This document shows, one piece after another, positions 2-20,372 of a stretch of 20,372 nt of DNA; the stretch's first letter is position 1; the number at the start of each line of letters is the position of its first letter. This DNA comes from a virus. The notes beneath the pieces are model-generated. The model saw only the letters and a list, made by a program, of their open reading frames with translations, had not been told where the DNA came from and ran no database searches. Location: positions 1 to 20,372 of IMG/VR virus record IMGVR_UViG_3300047552_000173, one strand, 5' to 3'. Made by a program: the position numbers and the translations under genes.

Positions 2-328
2 TACTCATCTGACTTTGAGAATGATACAGTAGCTTTTAATAAGTTCTTGCATTCGTTGGGTATGGATATCGACAAACCTGTGCTACGCCAAGACGGTTTA
101 CAGCATCGTAATCGCTTAAATGAAGTGGTAGTGTGCAGTCGATGGGTTGGAGAAGAGAGATTAGATGAAGCTTGGCTATATAGCGGTTACGCTAGTAGAG
201 AAGCAATTGACAAAGCCAGTGGCTCGAAGATTTTAGAAGACTTGTATCGCAGTCGTTACCTAACACAAGACGCGCAAGATTCACTAGAAGCTCGTGACCG
301 CTACAACGTAGTAAAAGAAGAGGATTAA
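2..328 (+). CDS. Hypothetical protein, 5' end outside window
   Basis: The reading frame is open from the left edge and ends at a TAA one base before nrdB, so only the last 108 residues are visible. A TTG at position 47 is in frame, but the open frame upstream of it encodes plausible protein, so I treat the gene as continuing off the window. The fragment is charged and acidic towards its end. It carries a short aromatic stretch (SRWVGEERLDEAWLYSGY) but no motif that I recognise. Its last codons contain the GAGG that serves as ribosome binding site for nrdB, so the two genes are very probably co-transcribed and translationally linked. Being first in a ribonucleotide reductase operon suggests, but does not show, a role in nucleotide or DNA metabolism. 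Confidence 0.75.
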   Translation, partial: YSSDFENDTVAFNKFLHSLGMDIDKPVLRQDGLQHRNRLNEVVVCSRWVGEERLDEAWLYSGYASREAIDKASGSKILEDLYRSRYLTQDAQDSLEARDRYNVVKEED

Positions 329-3273: not shown

Positions 3274-3518
3274 TTGCCGAGAAGTTTGAAGAATGGTTTT
3301 GGCAGAATGAAGACGGTTTTCAGTTTCGAGCTGAACGCTTCTTTCAGTGGGCTAAGGCTAAGGCAGATGCTGCAATAGGCTTTAATGAATATTTATCTGA
3401 TTGGATGAAAGGCTCATTTGAAGCTGGCTACAAAGAAGGTTATCGTGATGCATTAGCAAGTCTGCATTACAAGCCTGACGATGGTTCTGGCAAAGCTGCC
3501 GTAATTCATTTACAATAG
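3270..3518 (+). CDS. Hypothetical protein at end of reductase operon
   Basis: I do not recognise this 82-residue protein. It is rich in aromatic and charged residues in its first half (EEWFWQNEDGF, FFQWAKAKAD) and carries a helical alternating motif FEAGYKEGYRDAL, a pattern common in small phage proteins of unknown role. No signal peptide or membrane segment is evident. The start overlaps the thioredoxin stop (ATGA) and uses an AGGAG site inside that gene. It is the last gene of the + strand operon: the bidirectional terminator begins seven bases after its stop. Its existence is supported by tight coupling and a clean reading frame; the function is unknown. Confidence 0.75.
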   Translation: MIAEKFEEWFWQNEDGFQFRAERFFQWAKAKADAAIGFNEYLSDWMKGSFEAGYKEGYRDALASLHYKPDDGSGKAAVIHLQ

Positions 3519-3525
3519 GCGTAAA

Positions 3526-3563
3526 AAATCCCCGTAGTACCTTAGTTGGTATTACGGGGATTT
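3526..3563. terminator. Bidirectional intrinsic terminator between convergent operons
   Basis: A 16-bp stem (arms 3526-3541 and 3548-3563, one G-U wobble) closes a 6-base loop TTAGTT. The stem core is CCCCGTA/TACGGGG. On the + strand it is followed by TTTCTTTT, and on the - strand by TTTTTTAC, so it has a U-tract in both directions. It sits between the last reductase-operon gene and the endolysin gene, whose stop codon lies four bases away. Confidence 0.93.
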
Positions 3564-3566
3564 CTT

Positions 3567-11649: not shown

Positions 11650-14600
11650 TTATCTCCTAATTAATTGTTGTTGTACACCGAAGGTTGATTTTAAAGCCTT
11701 CTGTGAAGAGCTACCACTGCGGCTTACTTCACTGGCTGTCATATCACCGATGATAACCTCAATTTGACGATTACCTCTAGAGTCTGTTGTTTCAGAAGTA
11801 GTAGCTTGTGAGCTAGAGTTGTTAATTACGTTAACAGATACATTACTACCGCCGCCACCTTGTGATTGAACACCTAGAGAACCATCAGGGCCTCTACGTA
11901 GTGGCATAATAGCTTCTGGACCAGCTTCACCCATCATACCAGTGCCCTTAGCAAACTTGAATAATGTAGGACTATCTACGATAGAGTTAGTGAATGAACC
12001 GCCTTTAGCAAAGAACTCTACACCGCCGCCAGCGTATGCACCACCCTTAGCTCTATAAGAACCTGCAGGAAGTGTAGCTGTATCAACTGAACCAATACTG
12101 CCCATACCTTGACCACTAGTATCAGTGGTGTAACCGGGTCCTGCAAACATGTTCATCAAACCTCTAGCACCACCTGTAGCAGAATATAGTGCAGACATTT
12201 GAGCGCGTAATTCAAAACGAATTAAATCTACAAGCATCGAGTCAATCAAGCCTGAGAAACTTAGTTTACCAGTTTGAGCGAATGTTACAAGAGCATCAGC
12301 CATACCTTCGAATACTTTGGAGAAAGCATCATTATAGGCATTTAAACGCTTAATTGACATATCGTTATACTTGATTTCAGCATCACTTGCAGCCTTACCC
12401 GCAGCAATTTGAGCATCTGAGGTAGTCTTCGCTAAATACATCTTTGTTTCAGCCACTGTACGCTCTGCTAGAACTCTTTGTTCTGTATCCGCTGGAGATG
12501 CAGCTAAGTTTCTTTCAGCTTGGTTTACTCGCTCTTGAGCAGCAGTAATAGCTGGAATTAACTTGTTGTATTCTTCACGGTAAGCTTTAATACGTTCAGC
12601 TGAAGCGCCATAAGCACCAGCAAGTTCTTTTTCAGATTCATATGTCATTGCACGTTGATTCTGAGAAGTGGCTACTATCTTAGTAAATTCTACGTAGGCA
12701 TCTTTAGCTTGTTTTACAACTTCACCAATAACCTTCATATTTTCTACAGCGCGAGTATCAATTGTATCGGCAATAGTCTTTTTAGTGTTCTCTAAACTCT
12801 TGTTTAACTCATCGAACTTATCTTTTAAGTTTTTAACATCTTGAGAACCAGCACCTGCTCTAGCAGTTAAGGCAGCACGTTGTACTGCATAAGCTTCTGC
12901 AAATTGCTTCTGGTATTTTTCAATAACAGCTAATTGCTCTGCTTCGGAACCCTCTAATAATGCAGTGTCTTCAGCTACATATTCAGCACGGTCTTTTAAA
13001 CCAATGTCGTAATAGAACTTAAGAACCTTGCGTTTATTCTCGTTCATGGATTGAGCCATTTTTAGCTCTTCGCCATAAGCTTTTTGTGAGAGTTCTAAAT
13101 TATTAGGTTGAGCGCCTTCACCGAAGATTTCCCTCTTTAAACCTTTTACCACTTGGTTGTATTTTTCCTGAGTGATAATCCCGTCTTTTAAGTATTGGTC
13201 TTGGATTCGAATCTGTTGAGTGAATTTCTCTTGATTAGTTAATGACTTCTCAGAGTACTTACCATACTTTAATTCCCAATCAGCATAAGCCGAGTTTTTA
13301 GCTTTCTCGTCACCGCTGGCTTTTTCCATGTTGACTTGATTACGTAAGCTATCTTCAATCTCTTTTAATCTTGCTAACTCTTCCTTGTAAGCTGCACCTG
13401 TTTGGAACCATGAAGCACCTTCTCTAGTTCTCTGAGCAATATCCGCTGAAGCTTCTTTGAGTCTATCAGTTAGAGTGCCTTTACGACCTACGTTAAGAAT
13501 TTTATCCCACATATCAGAGGCGGTCGAACCGATACCTTTGAAAATGCTTTCGATAATACCCATGTCAGTTTTAATATCAATGGCAGCTTTCTTGAGAGCA
13601 TCTGAATAAGCACGAGTTGCTACAGCAGCAGCTTCTGTGCGATTACCTTGTTTCTCTAGGAGGCTAACAGCTTGTAAAACTTCTGGTGCAATTAAACCAG
13701 TTGATTTAGCTAATTCACGAATAGCATCTACAGGTTTCTCACCTAGTTTACTAAATTCTTTTACTGTTTGTGCTACATCAACACCAGCTGCTTTATTTAA
13801 TGCGACTGCTGCGGTAGTAACTGCCTCTAGATTATTAGAAGTAATATTACCTGCTTTAGCTGCTTCAGTAATAGCTACAGTAAAATCTCCGATATTGCCT
13901 TTACTACCTGCAAATGTTTTTGCTAGAGCAGTTGCTTGTTCGTTAGATAAACCTAAAGCACCACCAGAAAGAGTTAACGCTTTGTTTAATTCGCTCTCTT
14001 GTTTAATAACTTCTTTTAAGCCTACTAAGAATGCGACACCCAAGGCAGCTGCACCAACAACTAAACCGCCTGTAAATACCTGTAAGGCTTTACTTGCGCC
14101 ATTGAATGCACTAATTAATCCATTGTCACCTGTAGCCATAGCCATTAAGCTTAGTTGGTATCTGGCTTTTTCCATTAGGGCTGTTACGCCAGTAATTCTG
14201 CCACCGAATTCCATAACTGCTTTGCCAGAACTCATGAAGGCAGTGCCAACTAATTGACCAACAGCCATAGCTACGTCTTTAACGCTGCCTACCATCGCTT
14301 TAGAGGCTGCTACAAGCATCTTACCCATATCAGCACCAGCTACACCTGCTAATGCAAATTGGTCGCGTAATTGACCGCCTTGTTGTAGCATAACTGTGAG
14401 TGGTGCTTGACCTGTTGCAAGACCTACCGCAATGTCGGTAATCTGTGGGCCTAAGGCACGAGATAAATAATCTACTTGACGGTTGCCACTAGCTTTTTGT
14501 AAAGCCATTAGCTTTTGTCTATAACCGTCTAAGGCTGCACCTTGTTCTTGAGCAGTCTTACCAGAGTTCTTTAATGCAGCTTCGAAACGAATCAATGCAT

Positions 14601-15306
14601 TAGTAGTTCCAGAGGACAAGTCTTTATTTTGTTCTTGTAAGGCTGTATTAACTCTGTAGATTTCTTTTTCGAGATAAGCATTAGCTTTTGAGGTAGCAGC
14701 AACTTGTTGCTCCTTAGCTCTCATACTGTTAATGATTTTATTCTCAGCATCTACGTTGCTTAAGTATGCCATATTTAAAGACATAATACCAGATTTAATA
14801 TCTGTTAAACTACGACCTTCAATTTTATATTGTTCGAGTAAACGAATCTTATCACGGGCTAACTGTTCCATTTGAGAACGAGATAAACCTAATTCAGCAT
14901 TATATAAACGCTGGACTTCTTTAATAATTGTGTATTCGTTCTTTAAAGCTGTAAGCGCACCTAAGCTTTTATCAAATGGGTCTGTGCCCATTAATGTACG
15001 TTGTTTCTGAAGTACTACACCTAAGTCGGCAATCTCTGTACTCAAAGCACCTGCAGCTTTAGCATAAGCTAATACTGAAGCCTGACCCTTAGAGAAACCG
15101 TCAGCCATAAACTTAAGGATATCTTGCTGGCGCTGTAAAACTGTTACGTTTTCTTTAGTAGCCTTGGTTGAGTTTTCAGTCTCTTTTGTATTTTCTTTTA
15201 CAGGCTTATTAAGCTTTGAGACTTCAGTACCAAGATTCTTAATGGCTGTAACAGCAGAGACTAATTCACCAGTTTCTACTTTAAATTTTAATGTTTGTAA
15301 GTCCAT
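11650..15306 (-). CDS. Tail tape measure protein
   Basis: This 1218-residue protein sets tail length and is ejected with the DNA. Residues about 275-490 match the prophage tape measure domain (LSRALGPQITDIAVGLATGQ onward), including a hydrophobic helix at about 407-430. Coiled-coil regions surround it, at 1-230 and 600-1000. The C-terminal part matches the lambda-family tape measure end, with FKFAKGTGMMGEAGPEAIMP and a Gly/Ser-rich tail. From the lambda ratio of about 0.15 nm per residue, the tail would be roughly 180 nm long (inference). The start ATG has an AGGAAA site. Upstream lie a terminator and a long hairpin that separate it from the chaperone genes. The gene is larger than the lambda H gene (853 residues) but normal for siphoviruses. 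Confidence 0.94.
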   Translation of the reverse strand: MDLQTLKFKVETGELVSAVTAIKNLGTEVSKLNKPVKENTKETENSTKATKENVTVLQRQQDILKFMADGFSKGQASVLAYAKAAGALSTEIADLGVVLQKQRTLMGTDPFDKSLGALTALKNEYTIIKEVQRLYNAELGLSRSQMEQLARDKIRLLEQYKIEGRSLTDIKSGIMSLNMAYLSNVDAENKIINSMRAKEQQVAATSKANAYLEKEIYRVNTALQEQNKDLSSGTTNALIRFEAALKNSGKTAQEQGAALDGYRQKLMALQKASGNRQVDYLSRALGPQITDIAVGLATGQAPLTVMLQQGGQLRDQFALAGVAGADMGKMLVAASKAMVGSVKDVAMAVGQLVGTAFMSSGKAVMEFGGRITGVTALMEKARYQLSLMAMATGDNGLISAFNGASKALQVFTGGLVVGAAALGVAFLVGLKEVIKQESELNKALTLSGGALGLSNEQATALAKTFAGSKGNIGDFTVAITEAAKAGNITSNNLEAVTTAAVALNKAAGVDVAQTVKEFSKLGEKPVDAIRELAKSTGLIAPEVLQAVSLLEKQGNRTEAAAVATRAYSDALKKAAIDIKTDMGIIESIFKGIGSTASDMWDKILNVGRKGTLTDRLKEASADIAQRTREGASWFQTGAAYKEELARLKEIEDSLRNQVNMEKASGDEKAKNSAYADWELKYGKYSEKSLTNQEKFTQQIRIQDQYLKDGIITQEKYNQVVKGLKREIFGEGAQPNNLELSQKAYGEELKMAQSMNENKRKVLKFYYDIGLKDRAEYVAEDTALLEGSEAEQLAVIEKYQKQFAEAYAVQRAALTARAGAGSQDVKNLKDKFDELNKSLENTKKTIADTIDTRAVENMKVIGEVVKQAKDAYVEFTKIVATSQNQRAMTYESEKELAGAYGASAERIKAYREEYNKLIPAITAAQERVNQAERNLAASPADTEQRVLAERTVAETKMYLAKTTSDAQIAAGKAASDAEIKYNDMSIKRLNAYNDAFSKVFEGMADALVTFAQTGKLSFSGLIDSMLVDLIRFELRAQMSALYSATGGARGLMNMFAGPGYTTDTSGQGMGSIGSVDTATLPAGSYRAKGGAYAGGGVEFFAKGGSFTNSIVDSPTLFKFAKGTGMMGEAGPEAIMPLRRGPDGSLGVQSQGGGGSNVSVNVINNSSSQATTSETTDSRGNRQIEVIIGDMTASEVSRSGSSSQKALKSTFGVQQQLIRR

Positions 15307-15329: not shown

Positions 15330-15367
15330 TTTTATCTTTAATAACTAACTAATTACTAAAGATAAAA
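15330..15367 (-). promoter_or_regulatory. Long AU-rich hairpin whose 5' arm is the terminator U-tract
   Basis: The - strand RNA can form a 17-bp stem: an uninterrupted 11-bp Watson-Crick part (TTTTATCTTTA with TAAAGATAAAA) extended by six further pairs, two of them G-U, closed by loop AGTT. It abuts the terminator hairpin at 15368-15383 exactly, so the terminator's U-rich tail is its 5' arm. It ends 23 bases upstream of the tape measure start. Possible roles are RNase III processing, protection of the read-through mRNA or control of termination. The structure is direct sequence evidence; the role is inference. Confidence 0.72.
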
Positions 15368-15383
15368 GCCCTCGTGAGAGGGC
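15368..15383 (-). terminator. Intrinsic terminator after tail chaperone genes
   Basis: On the - strand the hairpin reads GCCCTC-TCAC-GAGGGC with a perfect 6-bp GC-rich stem, followed by TTTTATCTTT. It begins five bases after the stop of the chaperone T frame. It probably reduces transcription into the tape measure and tip genes, which are needed in few copies per virion. Confidence 0.85.
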
Positions 15384-15388
15384 AGTTA

Positions 15389-15769
15389 TTATTTACCTTT
15401 AGAGTTCTTTTCTTGAGCCTTAGCAAATGTATCTAAAGCTAAGTTATCGAATTTACGCAATAACGTTAGCTCCCACTCTTCGGGTTCTATTTGCATAAGG
15501 TCAAAATAACTTTTCATCTCAGTGAATGTGATTGGAGAAGCACCAAAACCGTTACCAGTTCTGGTTGAGTGTAATTCTCTGAAGTATTTCCACACATATA
15601 AACAGCTTTCAGGTAGTTCTAGAAGGTCCGACAATTCTTTAGGCTTATGCCCTGTCTGTCTCCAAACGCTCTCTAAATGCTGTTTAAGCGTAGCTCCACT
15701 CTTATCCTGAGTATTGAACTTAAACTCTTGTTCAGCGAATGCTAAAGCTTGTTCAATTTCCTGCGGGTC
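15389..15769 (-). CDS. Tail assembly chaperone, T part of frameshifted G-T protein
   Basis: This is the distal frame of a lambda G-T-like chaperone pair. The frame is open from 15799 to the stop at 15389 but has no ATG or GTG; the only candidate start is a TTG at 15634, which would discard a well-formed helical region (DPQEIEQALAFAEQEF). The most likely product is a fusion with the upstream G frame through a +1 shift near 15770, giving 134 + 126 = 260 residues encoded by 15389-16172. The T part has the aromatic/helical pattern of such chaperones (VWKYFRELHSTR, PITFTEMKSYFDLM, PEEWE). The fusion would bind the tape measure and recruit tail tube subunits, and is not itself part of the virion. 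A separate short protein starting at TTG 15634 is the alternative. Confidence 0.82.
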   Translation of the reverse strand, partial: DPQEIEQALAFAEQEFKFNTQDKSGATLKQHLESVWRQTGHKPKELSDLLELPESCLYVWKYFRELHSTRTGNGFGASPITFTEMKSYFDLMQIEPEEWELTLLRKFDNLALDTFAKAQEKNSKGK

Positions 15770-16172: not shown

Positions 16173-16229
16173 TTTATTGTCCTTTCATGACGTTAATCTG
16201 ATGAGATATACTCCCGCTATACAGTAGTA

Positions 16230-16258
16230 ATTATAGCATAGATTTACTTGAAAAGCAA
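16230..16258 (-). promoter_or_regulatory. Sigma70-like promoter for tail chaperone operon
   Basis: On the - strand a perfect TATAAT (-10, 16230-16235) is preceded by TG at the extended -10 position (TGCTATAAT) and lies exactly 17 bp from TTGCTT (-35, 16253-16258). The start of transcription would be near 16223, about 50 bases before the chaperone ATG. The -35 box lies in a small inverted repeat CTTG-N5-CAAG (16248-16260). It sits just downstream of the tail tube terminator, as expected for a restart promoter. Confidence 0.72.
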
Positions 16259-16274
16259 GATGCAGACGTAAAAA

Positions 16275-16304
16275 AAACCCCAAGGCTTTTACACCAAGGG
16301 GTTT
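16275..16304 (-). terminator. Intrinsic terminator after major tail protein
   Basis: On the - strand the arms AAACCCC and GGGGTTT form a 7-bp stem that continues, after a 2+2 internal mismatch, with GG/CC around an 8-base loop. It is followed by a run of eight T. It lies 26 bases after the tail tube stop codon. A promoter for the chaperone genes follows 17 bases further downstream. Confidence 0.88.
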
Positions 16305-16330
16305 AATTATATGGCCTCTAAGGGCAACTA

Positions 16331-17539
16331 TTAAATAGCAGAGTCTTGAACTGCGATTGTAGTAGCAGGTAAGCCAGCTGTAGTTACTTCGTTTAAGAGA
16401 GCTTGGAAGCTTGTAGCAGCTACAACACCAAGTTCACCGTCATCCTTTGTGAAGCTACCTAATTTTACTTTAGGTAATGTAAAGGTAACGAAATCAGAAT
16501 CGTTGCTTGAATCACTTGTTAATACTAATACTAATGATACTGGAGTTTCAGCATCAAAGTATGTACGGAAAGCAGCGTCTTGGAAGTAAACACTTAGGTT
16601 ACCAGTAACACGGATACGACCTGTGAAAATATCAGCTACTGAGTTAGAACCTACAGTAGTAGCATTTTCAGTGGCACGTTCTACAGTAAAGTCAGCAGAA
16701 GTAACTAAGGCAACAGGAGCGCCATCAACTAACATAACACCGTTTACAGCAGCGAAAATACCATCAGTACCTTGTGCAGTTGGTGAAGAGAAGTATTGAG
16801 TAGTACCAGTAGCAGCCATGTCTTTACCAGCGAAAGCTACGTCAACGGTAGTTAAACCAGTTGCAGGTAATTGAACAGCTAAACTATTAACTTTCATACC
16901 AGTGTAAACTTCGGACTGAGCAATATCAGAGTACCACTCTTCGATAGTGTAAGATTGGTCAGTGTGGCCTGTAGCAGGAACGAAAGTTACTTTACCTACG
17001 GCAGTAATATTTGAAGATGCAGCAGGACCTTCTTCGACTAAATCAGAACCGTTTACAACTTTAACAGTTAAAACTGTATCAGAAACGAGTGTAACTAGTA
17101 AGTTGTTACCTACATTGTCTGTGTCTAAGTTAGCACCAGATAGGCGAATTACTTGACCAACTTTAAAACCTTCGTTTAACCAGTTGCCAGCACCGCGAGT
17201 AATAGTGTATAAAGCACCTGAAGCATCGATTGTGATTGATACACCAGTAGCTGCAGGAGCAGTAGTAAAGTCACGAGCTAAAACTGAACCCATAAAGTCT
17301 GCATAAGATGCAGGAGCTAGTTCACCGTTTAATGAACCTTCTGCGCTACGTACACCGTGGCGGAAGTCAGCGATTTGACGGTCAGTACGAATCTCACCAG
17401 ATTCATATGTCTCTTTTGTTAAGTTGAAACTAGCAGTAACACGGCGAAGTAATTTGCCAGCAGAAGTGCCAGCTAAAGTGCCGAAAGAACTTTCTTTCTT
17501 GTAGCCGACTTGTTTAGCCGTACCTTTTGCGATTGTCAT
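16331..17539 (-). CDS. Major tail tube protein
   Basis: This 402-residue protein fits the siphovirus tail tube family often labelled Phage_tube_2. The N-terminus has the family signature YKKESSFGT (13-21) followed by KLLRRVTASFNLTKETYESGEI and DRQIADFRHG, then the tube core. About residues 100-180 form an inserted beta-rich region (ITRGAGNWLNEGF, GQVIRLSG) before the core resumes near VPATGHTDQSYTIEEWY. It would stack as hexameric rings to make the tail tube, with the tape measure inside. It is longer than lambda V (246 residues), mostly because of the insertion and C-terminal half. A GGAG site precedes the ATG. A cluster of palindromes lies in its leader and a strong terminator follows it. 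Confidence 0.9.
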   Translation of the reverse strand: MTIAKGTAKQVGYKKESSFGTLAGTSAGKLLRRVTASFNLTKETYESGEIRTDRQIADFRHGVRSAEGSLNGELAPASYADFMGSVLARDFTTAPAATGVSITIDASGALYTITRGAGNWLNEGFKVGQVIRLSGANLDTDNVGNNLLVTLVSDTVLTVKVVNGSDLVEEGPAASSNITAVGKVTFVPATGHTDQSYTIEEWYSDIAQSEVYTGMKVNSLAVQLPATGLTTVDVAFAGKDMAATGTTQYFSSPTAQGTDGIFAAVNGVMLVDGAPVALVTSADFTVERATENATTVGSNSVADIFTGRIRVTGNLSVYFQDAAFRTYFDAETPVSLVLVLTSDSSNDSDFVTFTLPKVKLGSFTKDDGELGVVAATSFQALLNEVTTAGLPATTIAVQDSAI

Positions 17540-18896: not shown

Positions 18897-19301
18897 TCAA
18901 ATATTAAACTGAAGTGAAGGTAGATTTGTTGTATCTTGTGTCGGAACAGTTATAATATTATTATCCTGATTTGCATCATTAGCTGCCATATCTGATTTAC
19001 TAATACCGCCAGCATAAGGCATCGCATTAGTATAGATTGGGTTAAGGTCAGGATTCTTGATATACATTTGTAACGCTGCCATAAATTGTTTAGCGGCTGC
19101 ACTACCTTTAATACTAAAAATATCAAATGTTTCGTCTGGTCTTAATGATAGTTTTAATACCATTGATTTAGCGGCATCTAGTGAGGCTCTGCGAATAGAC
19201 CAGTCATTTTTATCTAGAAAATATCTATACTCTTCATCGGACATAAGAGGAAAATTAACATCGGTATCGCCGAGTTCCATACGTAATGCGTGAACTGTCA
19301 T
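18897..19301 (-). CDS. Head-tail adaptor (connector) protein
   Basis: This 134-residue protein shows the helical pattern of gp6/gp15-type head-tail adaptors. The N-terminus carries LRMELGDTDVNFPLMSDEEYRYFL, followed by helices containing SIRRASLDAAKSMVLKL and IKGSAAAKQFMAALQMYIK, the core of that family. The last 45 residues are polar, Asn/Asp/Thr-rich and probably flexible. It lies directly after the capsid gene and its terminator, where lambda-like phages encode the first protein added to the portal after DNA packaging. An AAAGGA site precedes the ATG. The leader contains the long UUCG hairpin described separately. Function is assigned from family-like sequence and position. Confidence 0.78.
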   Translation of the reverse strand: MTVHALRMELGDTDVNFPLMSDEEYRYFLDKNDWSIRRASLDAAKSMVLKLSLRPDETFDIFSIKGSAAAKQFMAALQMYIKNPDLNPIYTNAMPYAGGISKSDMAANDANQDNNIITVPTQDTTNLPSLQFNI

Positions 19302-19323: not shown

Positions 19324-19367
19324 CTTTCTTCAAATAGCCTATACGAATATAAGCCATTAGAAGAAAG
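19324..19367 (-). promoter_or_regulatory. Long hairpin with UUCG loop after capsid terminator
   Basis: On the - strand this 44-base stretch folds into one stem: an 8-bp end helix (CTTTCTTC with GAAGAAAG), a U-U mismatch, AAT/ATT, then an 8-bp helix (GGCTTATA with TATAGGCT) closed by TTCG. Two of the 19 pairs are G-U, which would be A-C mismatches on the + strand, so the fold suits the sense RNA. Its 5' arm is the U-rich tail of the capsid terminator. No U-tract follows, so it is not a second terminator. RNase III processing or mRNA protection are plausible roles (inference). Confidence 0.75.
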
Positions 19368-19384
19368 CCTCCCTTTCAGGAGGC
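19367..19384 (-). terminator. Intrinsic terminator after major capsid gene
   Basis: On the - strand GCCTCC and GGAGGC form a perfect 6-bp stem with loop TGAAAG, followed by the U-rich tail TTTCTTCT. It lies 15 bases after the capsid stop codon. Some read-through is required because no promoter is evident before the adaptor gene, so it probably acts as an attenuator. Confidence 0.82.
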
Positions 19385-19399
19385 AATCTTAGCTAACGA

Positions 19400-20372
19400 T
19401 TAGTTAGAAGTCTTAACCTTAACTACAGCAGCAGGGCGGCGGATTAAGTTTAAGAAGTTAGATTCAGTTTGAATCTGGATTTCAACGTCTTTAGGGTCAC
19501 GGTAAGTGAATGCATAAGCTTCTTCACCGAGAGTATTGACATGGCTGAAACGGTTAGCAGGTGAGAAATATGTCTTGAACATATCGCTTGTACCTGTTGG
19601 TAACATTACGCCTTCACCAGCAGGGATGAGAGCTGTACCATTGTATGAACCACGGTATTCGATGTAGGTTACGCCACCGTGTACGAAACGGCGATATAAA
19701 CCAGAACCTAAACGCTGACGGAGTGGCTCTTGAGTACTTGTGTAGTACTTGTAAGCTTCTTTAACAGTAGCGTGGTTGATGAGCTTACCGAAGAACGCTG
19801 GTGAGCATAATACGATAACTTCGTTCACAACTTCACCAGTTAAGATGTTGTCTTGAATGTGAGCGATACCTTCTTCAGACTTAGCTAAGAGGTCTGTAGT
19901 GCTTGTACCGAACGTGAAGTCGATTTCCTTCTGTGTAACACCGAAATCAGTGAAGAAGTTGCCAGATACTGTACCGTTTGGAGCGTAGATAGCGCCAGTA
20001 GTTAAAGCATAGGCACGAGCAGCTTCAAGGGTGATAGCGTGGCTAGAACGGATACGCTCTAACTTACGTGCGGTAACAGCAGCTTCGGTTTCAGCAGCGT
20101 CTGCATTGCCATAAGCACGTTTACCTTGGATATCTTGAGGCTTGATAGCGTCATCTAATGGGAAGTGAGGGATTGGGAATGAACGTAGGTTACGTGTGTC
20201 GTCACTGTTCATAGTGTTACGAGCGCCACGAACTTGGTCAGTAACTAAACCGAGTGTACCCTGAGTAGCTTCTACAGTAACTGAGTGTTGTGAAACTGGC
20301 TCATTAGAGAAGATACCTAATTCATTGATTAGACCCCATTTATTAGGAACTAGTAAGAGTTCTTGTGTGTAG
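19400..20372 (-). CDS. Major capsid protein, lambda E-like (5' end outside window)
   Basis: The visible 323 residues match the phage major capsid protein E family. The frame stays open through the right edge, and the stretch before the internal ATG at 20212 clearly belongs to the protein (LLLVPNKWGLINELGIF, RGARNT), so that ATG is not the true start. Family landmarks include RSFPIPHFPLDDAI, DIQGKRAYG, the helix ending HAITLEAARAYAL, and a C-terminal part with FSPANRFSHVNTLGEEAYAF. With lambda E at 341 residues, only a short N-terminal piece should be missing. The protein forms the icosahedral shell; a decoration protein gene would be expected just upstream, outside the window. An intrinsic terminator follows the stop, in keeping with its need for many copies. 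Confidence 0.93.
   Translation of the reverse strand, partial: YTQELLLVPNKWGLINELGIFSNEPVSQHSVTVEATQGTLGLVTDQVRGARNTMNSDDTRNLRSFPIPHFPLDDAIKPQDIQGKRAYGNADAAETEAAVTARKLERIRSSHAITLEAARAYALTTGAIYAPNGTVSGNFFTDFGVTQKEIDFTFGTSTTDLLAKSEEGIAHIQDNILTGEVVNEVIVLCSPAFFGKLINHATVKEAYKYYTSTQEPLRQRLGSGLYRRFVHGGVTYIEYRGSYNGTALIPAGEGVMLPTGTSDMFKTYFSPANRFSHVNTLGEEAYAFTYRDPKDVEIQIQTESNFLNLIRRPAAVVKVKTSN

Follow-up and report, generated by a model that had tools for sequence, protein, structure and literature searches.

Behind the major capsid gene of a virus fragment of 20,372 bases, a terminator runs without a gap into a second, much longer hairpin. The question raised by this locus is what such an arrangement does, and whether it acts as DNA or as RNA. 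The whole fragment was analysed and is called the window in the following. Its late module lies on the minus strand and contains genes for capsid, connector and neck proteins, tail chaperones, the tape measure and a lambda J-like fibre, together with a tail gene annotated as minor tail protein (Table 1). The capsid reading frame is open to the window end, which the DNA similarity with the capsid gene of Limnohabitans phage DC31 also reaches, and the true start of the gene is thus probably outside the window. The window scan gave no promoter-like site between the capsid gene and the next gene, which suggests that the connector genes depend on read-through.

Table 1. Features of the late module of the window at the two composites
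Feature	Position	Strand	Description	Basis
Major capsid gene	19400..20212	-	Upstream of composite 1	PHROG 29 major head protein
Terminator (clamp) hairpin 1	19367..19384	-	GCCTCCT-GAAA-GGGAGGC, U-rich tail UUUCUUCU	Fold; top-ranked terminator-like site of the scanned region
Long read-through hairpin 1	19324..19366	-	18 pairs and one U.U mismatch, UUCG loop	Fold; conservation
PHROG 1732 gene, connector region	18897..19301	-	Downstream of composite 1	
Tail-chaperone-like gene	15389..15634	-	Upstream of composite 2	PHROG 3817 tail chaperonin and related families
Terminator (clamp) hairpin 2	15368..15383	-	GCCCTC-TCAC-GAGGGC, tail UUUUAUCUUU	Terminator ranking, composite scan, fold
Long read-through hairpin 2	15330..15367	-	17 pairs, 4-nt loop, U-tract in 5' arm	Fold; covariation in 15 relatives
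Tape-measure gene	11650..15306	-	Downstream of composite 2	PHROG 24

The minus-strand sequence of composite 1 is GCCTCCTGAAAGGGAGGC followed by TTTCTTCTAATGGCTTATATTCGTATAGGCTATTTGAAGAAAG. Directly past the capsid stop codon the RNA reads GCCUCCU-GAAA-GGGAGGC and then UUUCUUCUAAUGGCUUAUA-UUCG-UAUAGGCUAUUUGAAGAAA; the U-tract of the terminator sits within the 5' arm of the long hairpin, and the gap between the hairpins is 0. The minimum-energy fold of 19400-19300(-) is made up of the two adjoining hairpins and nothing else (-31.4 kcal/mol, z = -4.0), with 0 of 200 shuffles as good, and it contains both the gapless order and the double use of the U-rich tail that a sequence-only reading of the locus had proposed. 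That reading had assigned 19 base pairs with one mismatch to 19324-19367. The stem is indeed long, but C19367 can pair in only one of the two hairpins, and with this base placed in the terminator the 19 positions of the stem are 18 pairs and one U.U mismatch. The two G-U pairs are real and correspond to A.C in the antisense RNA. The fold of that strand is clearly weaker (-21.8 kcal/mol) and there is no U-tract on its side, and a bidirectional terminator was rejected on these grounds. The UUCG loop, which had been given weight, has no special meaning: it is closed by A-U and not C-G, and is therefore not the extra-stable cUUCGg loop, nor is it conserved, the apex being UACG in one relative (L082) and carrying other loops in further ones. 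An Rfam search of the window gave 0 matches above the gathering score, and no known RNA family or tRNA was found.

The capsid composite, although real, is not the sole copy. The window was searched for inverted repeats without regard to strand and for composites (a GC-rich hairpin, a gap of 0-2 and then at least 13 ungapped pairs). This located a second one at 15383-15330(-) that the earlier reading had overlooked. Its RNA reads GCCCUC-UCAC-GAGGGC and then UUUUAUCUUUAGUAAUU-AGUU-AGUUAUUAAAGAUAAAA, and the z score of its fold is -6.6. Exactly 2 composites were found by the scan in the window and 0 in 10 shuffled windows, and the clamps (19384-19367 and 15383-15368) are the two top-ranked terminator sites of the minus strand. 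The composites have a common design and no common sequence.

Relatives were collected from IMG/VR, with the capsid as query (80 loci, 64-97 % identical) and with the gene next to it, and also from GenBank. Their capsid 3' regions have the two-hairpin layout almost without exception, with the letters changed. An energy search scored the long hairpin in 57 of 62 distinct regions, the stems having a median of 23 pairs (range about 15-29) and at least 17 pairs in 52 of the 57. The regions missed by the search include two with an insert within the hairpin apex and the outer arms kept (L052 and L053), one with a 17-pair abutting hairpin behind a terminator whose loop is longer (L072), one with arms of 18 positions (L081) and one exception in spacing (L067). 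The first energy control was too permissive, since its cut-off of -8 kcal/mol let through 24 of 124 shuffles, and a dinucleotide control at a fixed position took its place. With the start fixed, -12 kcal/mol or lower was reached by 52 of 54 observed hairpins compared to 7 of 216 dinucleotide shuffles.

A lack of compensatory changes in related phages had been named beforehand as evidence against the structure; this was checked, and the structure passed. Among 15 relatives at site 2, 98.8 % of the cells are paired, 9 of the 17 long-stem pairs have changed on both sides and covariation is 0.385 (0.151 when shuffled), while sliding the partner leaves only 37-56 % pairing. The six nearest relatives at the capsid site are 96.0 % paired with a covariation of 0.224 compared to 0.124 shuffled; their number of pairs changed on both sides was reached by 76 of 500 shuffles and is not itself unusual with so few sequences. 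A chance fold beside an ordinary terminator would agree with the plain terminator found in outgroups (see below), but no composite occurs in shuffles and the fold is conserved with compensation at two loci, which makes this explanation barely conceivable. A chance inverted repeat is likewise ruled out by the shuffles and the comparative data.

Many relatives have a separate terminator upstream (GCCCUUCGGGGC-UUUCU), and a U-poor clamp beside the long stem, e.g. GGAGGC-AUCUAACAU. The two-hairpin geometry is kept even where the U-tract of the clamp is poor and another terminator lies upstream. Judged from these relatives, termination and two-hairpin geometry are separable, and the retention of the geometry argues that the clamp may do more than terminate, for example cap the 3' end left by processing.

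A selected DNA palindrome is expected to show G.T and A.C departures from pairing equally often, and the arms were aligned treating both alike. In 54 distinct hairpins G.U was counted 131 times and A.C 17 times; after clustering the numbers were 61 and 10, whereas composition alone predicts a ratio of 1.6:1 (p = 1e-5). Every A.C case is a C.A, with 11 of them in one stem column, which is the -35 of a promoter-like sequence in a subgroup. At site 2 alone, 7 and 1 distinct types were found, respectively, which is the same direction and not significant. The fetched phage loci, which partly duplicate each other by overlap, contain approximately 110 composites, every one of them on the sense strand of the late genes. 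The large excess of G.U over A.C, together with the compensatory changes, indicates that the fold is selected in the sense transcript, as had been surmised from the two G-U pairs, and the strand asymmetry rules out a DNA palindrome or cruciform. Both arms are present only in RNA that has passed the terminator, which supports the earlier claim that the second hairpin can form only there. Since it is the sense transcript that is kept, the read-through RNA would be the molecule under selection, and selection at a terminator can thus act on read-through RNA and not only on terminated RNA.

These data also bear on the possibility of a DNA element, i.e. a palindrome that serves the downstream genes as operator or promoter. 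A DC31-like subgroup has a promoter-like pair, TTG-N6... (TTGC.. N17 TGTTATAAT or TGTTAGAAT), at fixed spacing in the hairpin. However, neither the window nor its closest relatives have the pair, the motif does not recur as an operator in DC31, and G.U far above A.C is a mark of RNA selection, so that we consider a DNA element highly improbable; the promoter in the hairpin looks like an add-on of one subgroup. A dispersed operator repeat (TCTAACAT/ATGTTAGA) was also considered and rejected, as DC31 has only single scattered copies elsewhere. An RNA site recognised by a phage or host protein, such as an operator controlling translation of the downstream gene, would suit the position of both composites 12-15 nt upstream of a ribosome-binding site, but is improbable when the sequences of stem and loop both vary among relatives and the two loci have no sequence in common.

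What has to be explained is a geometry that recurs at two loci, is conserved and is selected in the sense RNA. In our main reading, to which we assign a probability of about 0.55, each composite is a partial (leaky) intrinsic terminator fused to a processing hairpin of the RNase III type, one at each of two fixed boundaries in the late operon. Both sites of the window have the GC-rich stem-loop followed by a U-rich tract that is typical of intrinsic terminators, and also the long, nearly regular double-stranded stem in the transcript (18 and 17 pairs) that is sought in RNase III sites. Most polymerases would stop at the U-tract and give abundant capsid (or chaperone) mRNA. A minority would read through, and when the 3' arm had been made the U-tract would be captured in a helix of about 15-29 bp adjoining the terminator hairpin. 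The long helix would then be cut by RNase III of the host, or by a different nuclease specific for double strands, leaving an upstream message that ends just past the terminator hairpin, nearly identical to the protected 3' end produced by termination, and freeing a downstream message in which a short leader precedes the ribosome-binding site. Partial termination and cleavage are inferred, and so is their influence on stability and stoichiometry.

It is plausible that RNase III cleavage gives the capsid mRNA a defined 3' end, as the sequence-only reading suggested. The 5' hairpin it expected on the downstream mRNA would not result, as a cut within the stem would leave only an unpaired half-arm about 12 nt before the ribosome-binding site. 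The long stems exceed what is needed to block an exonuclease, and their lengths therefore suit RNase III rather than a mere block, with the stems of the capsid site in the window (18-19 positions) and of site 2 (17 pairs) near the short end for this enzyme. We know of no reliable way to predict RNase III sites from sequence, and a hairpin that is never cut would give an identical comparative signature. It is possible, although we think it less likely, that the composite is an uncut structural barrier. The two hairpins make the read-through intercistronic RNA almost fully double-stranded, which might keep RNase E, Hfq and exonucleases away from the U-rich tract or shield the 5' side of the downstream gene. 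Such a barrier accounts equally well for the sense-strand selection and the zero gap, but stems of 17-29 pairs are not needed for it; the shortest stems observed have about 15 pairs. That the two hairpins stack coaxially is suggested only by the absence of a gap between them.

The terminator fused to a processing hairpin has counterparts in Escherichia coli. At ahpC-ahpF and pflB-pflA, RNase III cuts between the genes and stabilises the upstream message; the pflB-pflA cut follows transcription through a strong terminator, and the pflBA hairpin contains the pflA promoter (PMC5371410). Both resemble the phage composites in having a terminator hairpin after a highly expressed gene and then a long hairpin, the second stem of ahpC-ahpF having 17 pairs in the predicted fold, and the promoter of the pflBA hairpin resembles the promoter-like sequence within the hairpins of the DC31-like subgroup. 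However, in the folds they have a spacer of about 13-15 nt and an unpaired U-tract, whereas in the phage composites the U-tract is the 5' arm. The rplL-rpoB attenuator with its RNase III site (Barry et al. 1980, as cited in PMC5371410) and the rpsO-pnp leader have a partial terminator that separates the gene of an abundant product from that of a scarcer one, and then an RNase III hairpin. Their parts are much longer and about 12 nt or more apart in the folds, the phage composites being tighter.

In lambda sib/tI retroregulation an RNase III substrate is present only in RNA reading through the terminator. There the terminator hairpin is within the cut structure and the int message is destroyed, whereas in the phage composite it is intact upstream of the stem, which predicts the opposite of such destruction of the upstream message. 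Phage T7, whose messages are processed by RNase III, has Tphi annotated at 24210, directly after capsid gene 10. Its terminator is placed as in composite 1, but the scan found no composite in the T7 genome (nor in 45 kb of PAK_P3), and T7 is not known to combine termination and RNase III processing at one place. The best reading by analogy is that the phage composite would be a tighter variant of the E. coli order of terminator and RNase III site, in which one U-tract has two uses.

We regard it as an even bet that the composite is a compact, reusable phage RNA module in which the U-tract is the tail of the terminator and, once polymerase has read through, becomes one arm of the helix to be processed. 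Termination and cleavage would then yield nearly the same protected 3' end, and the late operon would be split between capsid and connector and between chaperone and tape measure. A single operon has to supply a phage with capsid subunits in the hundreds and with a dozen connectors. A strongly conserved and easily cloned RNA element may use one shared sequence both to set the capsid/connector ratio and to protect the abundant message, and a conserved fold with changing letters probably helps to cut or cap the capsid and tail messages at fixed points. The model predicts RNase III-dependent ends at two mapped places, in widespread and little-studied freshwater phages.

Curvibacter phage P26059A (capsid 62 % identical) has exactly 2 composites in 35 kb, one after the capsid gene and one directly before the tape measure, at the same boundaries as in the window. 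Phage DC31 also has both, which the strict scan misses because the capsid stem is more mismatched and the site-2 clamp AT-rich. The hosts of these two isolates of the clade are Curvibacter and Limnohabitans, respectively. In lambda the scan gave one weak, G.U-rich match. The capsid genes of outgroups have at most a plain terminator (PAK_P3, phiPsa374, Henu5, KpS8, Barba14A, phAPEC8, naswa and ICP1), and the Felix-type phages wV8 and Moogle have no terminator at the capsid gene. Judging from these genomes, it looks as if the plain terminator is ancestral and the fused hairpin specific to this freshwater-phage clade. Literature searches did not find the layout described in phages, which is weak evidence, subscription journals being little covered. 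In PAK_P3 (NC_022970.1 5108-5790; L110/L129), a distant relative, RNA-seq-based antisense RNA lies over the capsid 3' end and terminator. It is one of 20 antisense RNAs, mostly early, in this genome, and PAK_P3 is without the long hairpin, so it was rejected as an explanation.

Some further observations were made at and near these boundaries. After the capsid gene of five relatives (L052-L056), the hairpin apex contains an insert of approximately 100 nt with short internal repeats, the outer arms being kept. In many relatives, among them L021, L025, L031, L033, L057 and P26059A, endonuclease-like genes follow the capsid composite directly and precede the adaptor gene; that of P26059A (L111 1969-2799) is annotated HNH, and others appear GIY-YIG-like by eye. 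The distance from capsid to adaptor is about 660-1275 nt with such a gene and about 90-140 nt elsewhere, and the boundary looks like an insertion hot spot. A weak composite-like structure is present upstream of the capsid gene in three near-identical loci only (L025, L026 and L030, 1550-1639). In the window, the tail gene 16331-17539 is followed at 16173-16330(-) by a plain terminator (AAACCCC...GGGGTTTTTTTT) and then a promoter-like TGCTATAAT, without a composite, and DC31 has a terminator and a promoter-like TGTTATAAT site at the matching place. A strong inverted repeat with an A-tract and a T-tract at 3523-3566, between convergent genes ending at 3518 and 3567, is an ordinary bidirectional terminator.
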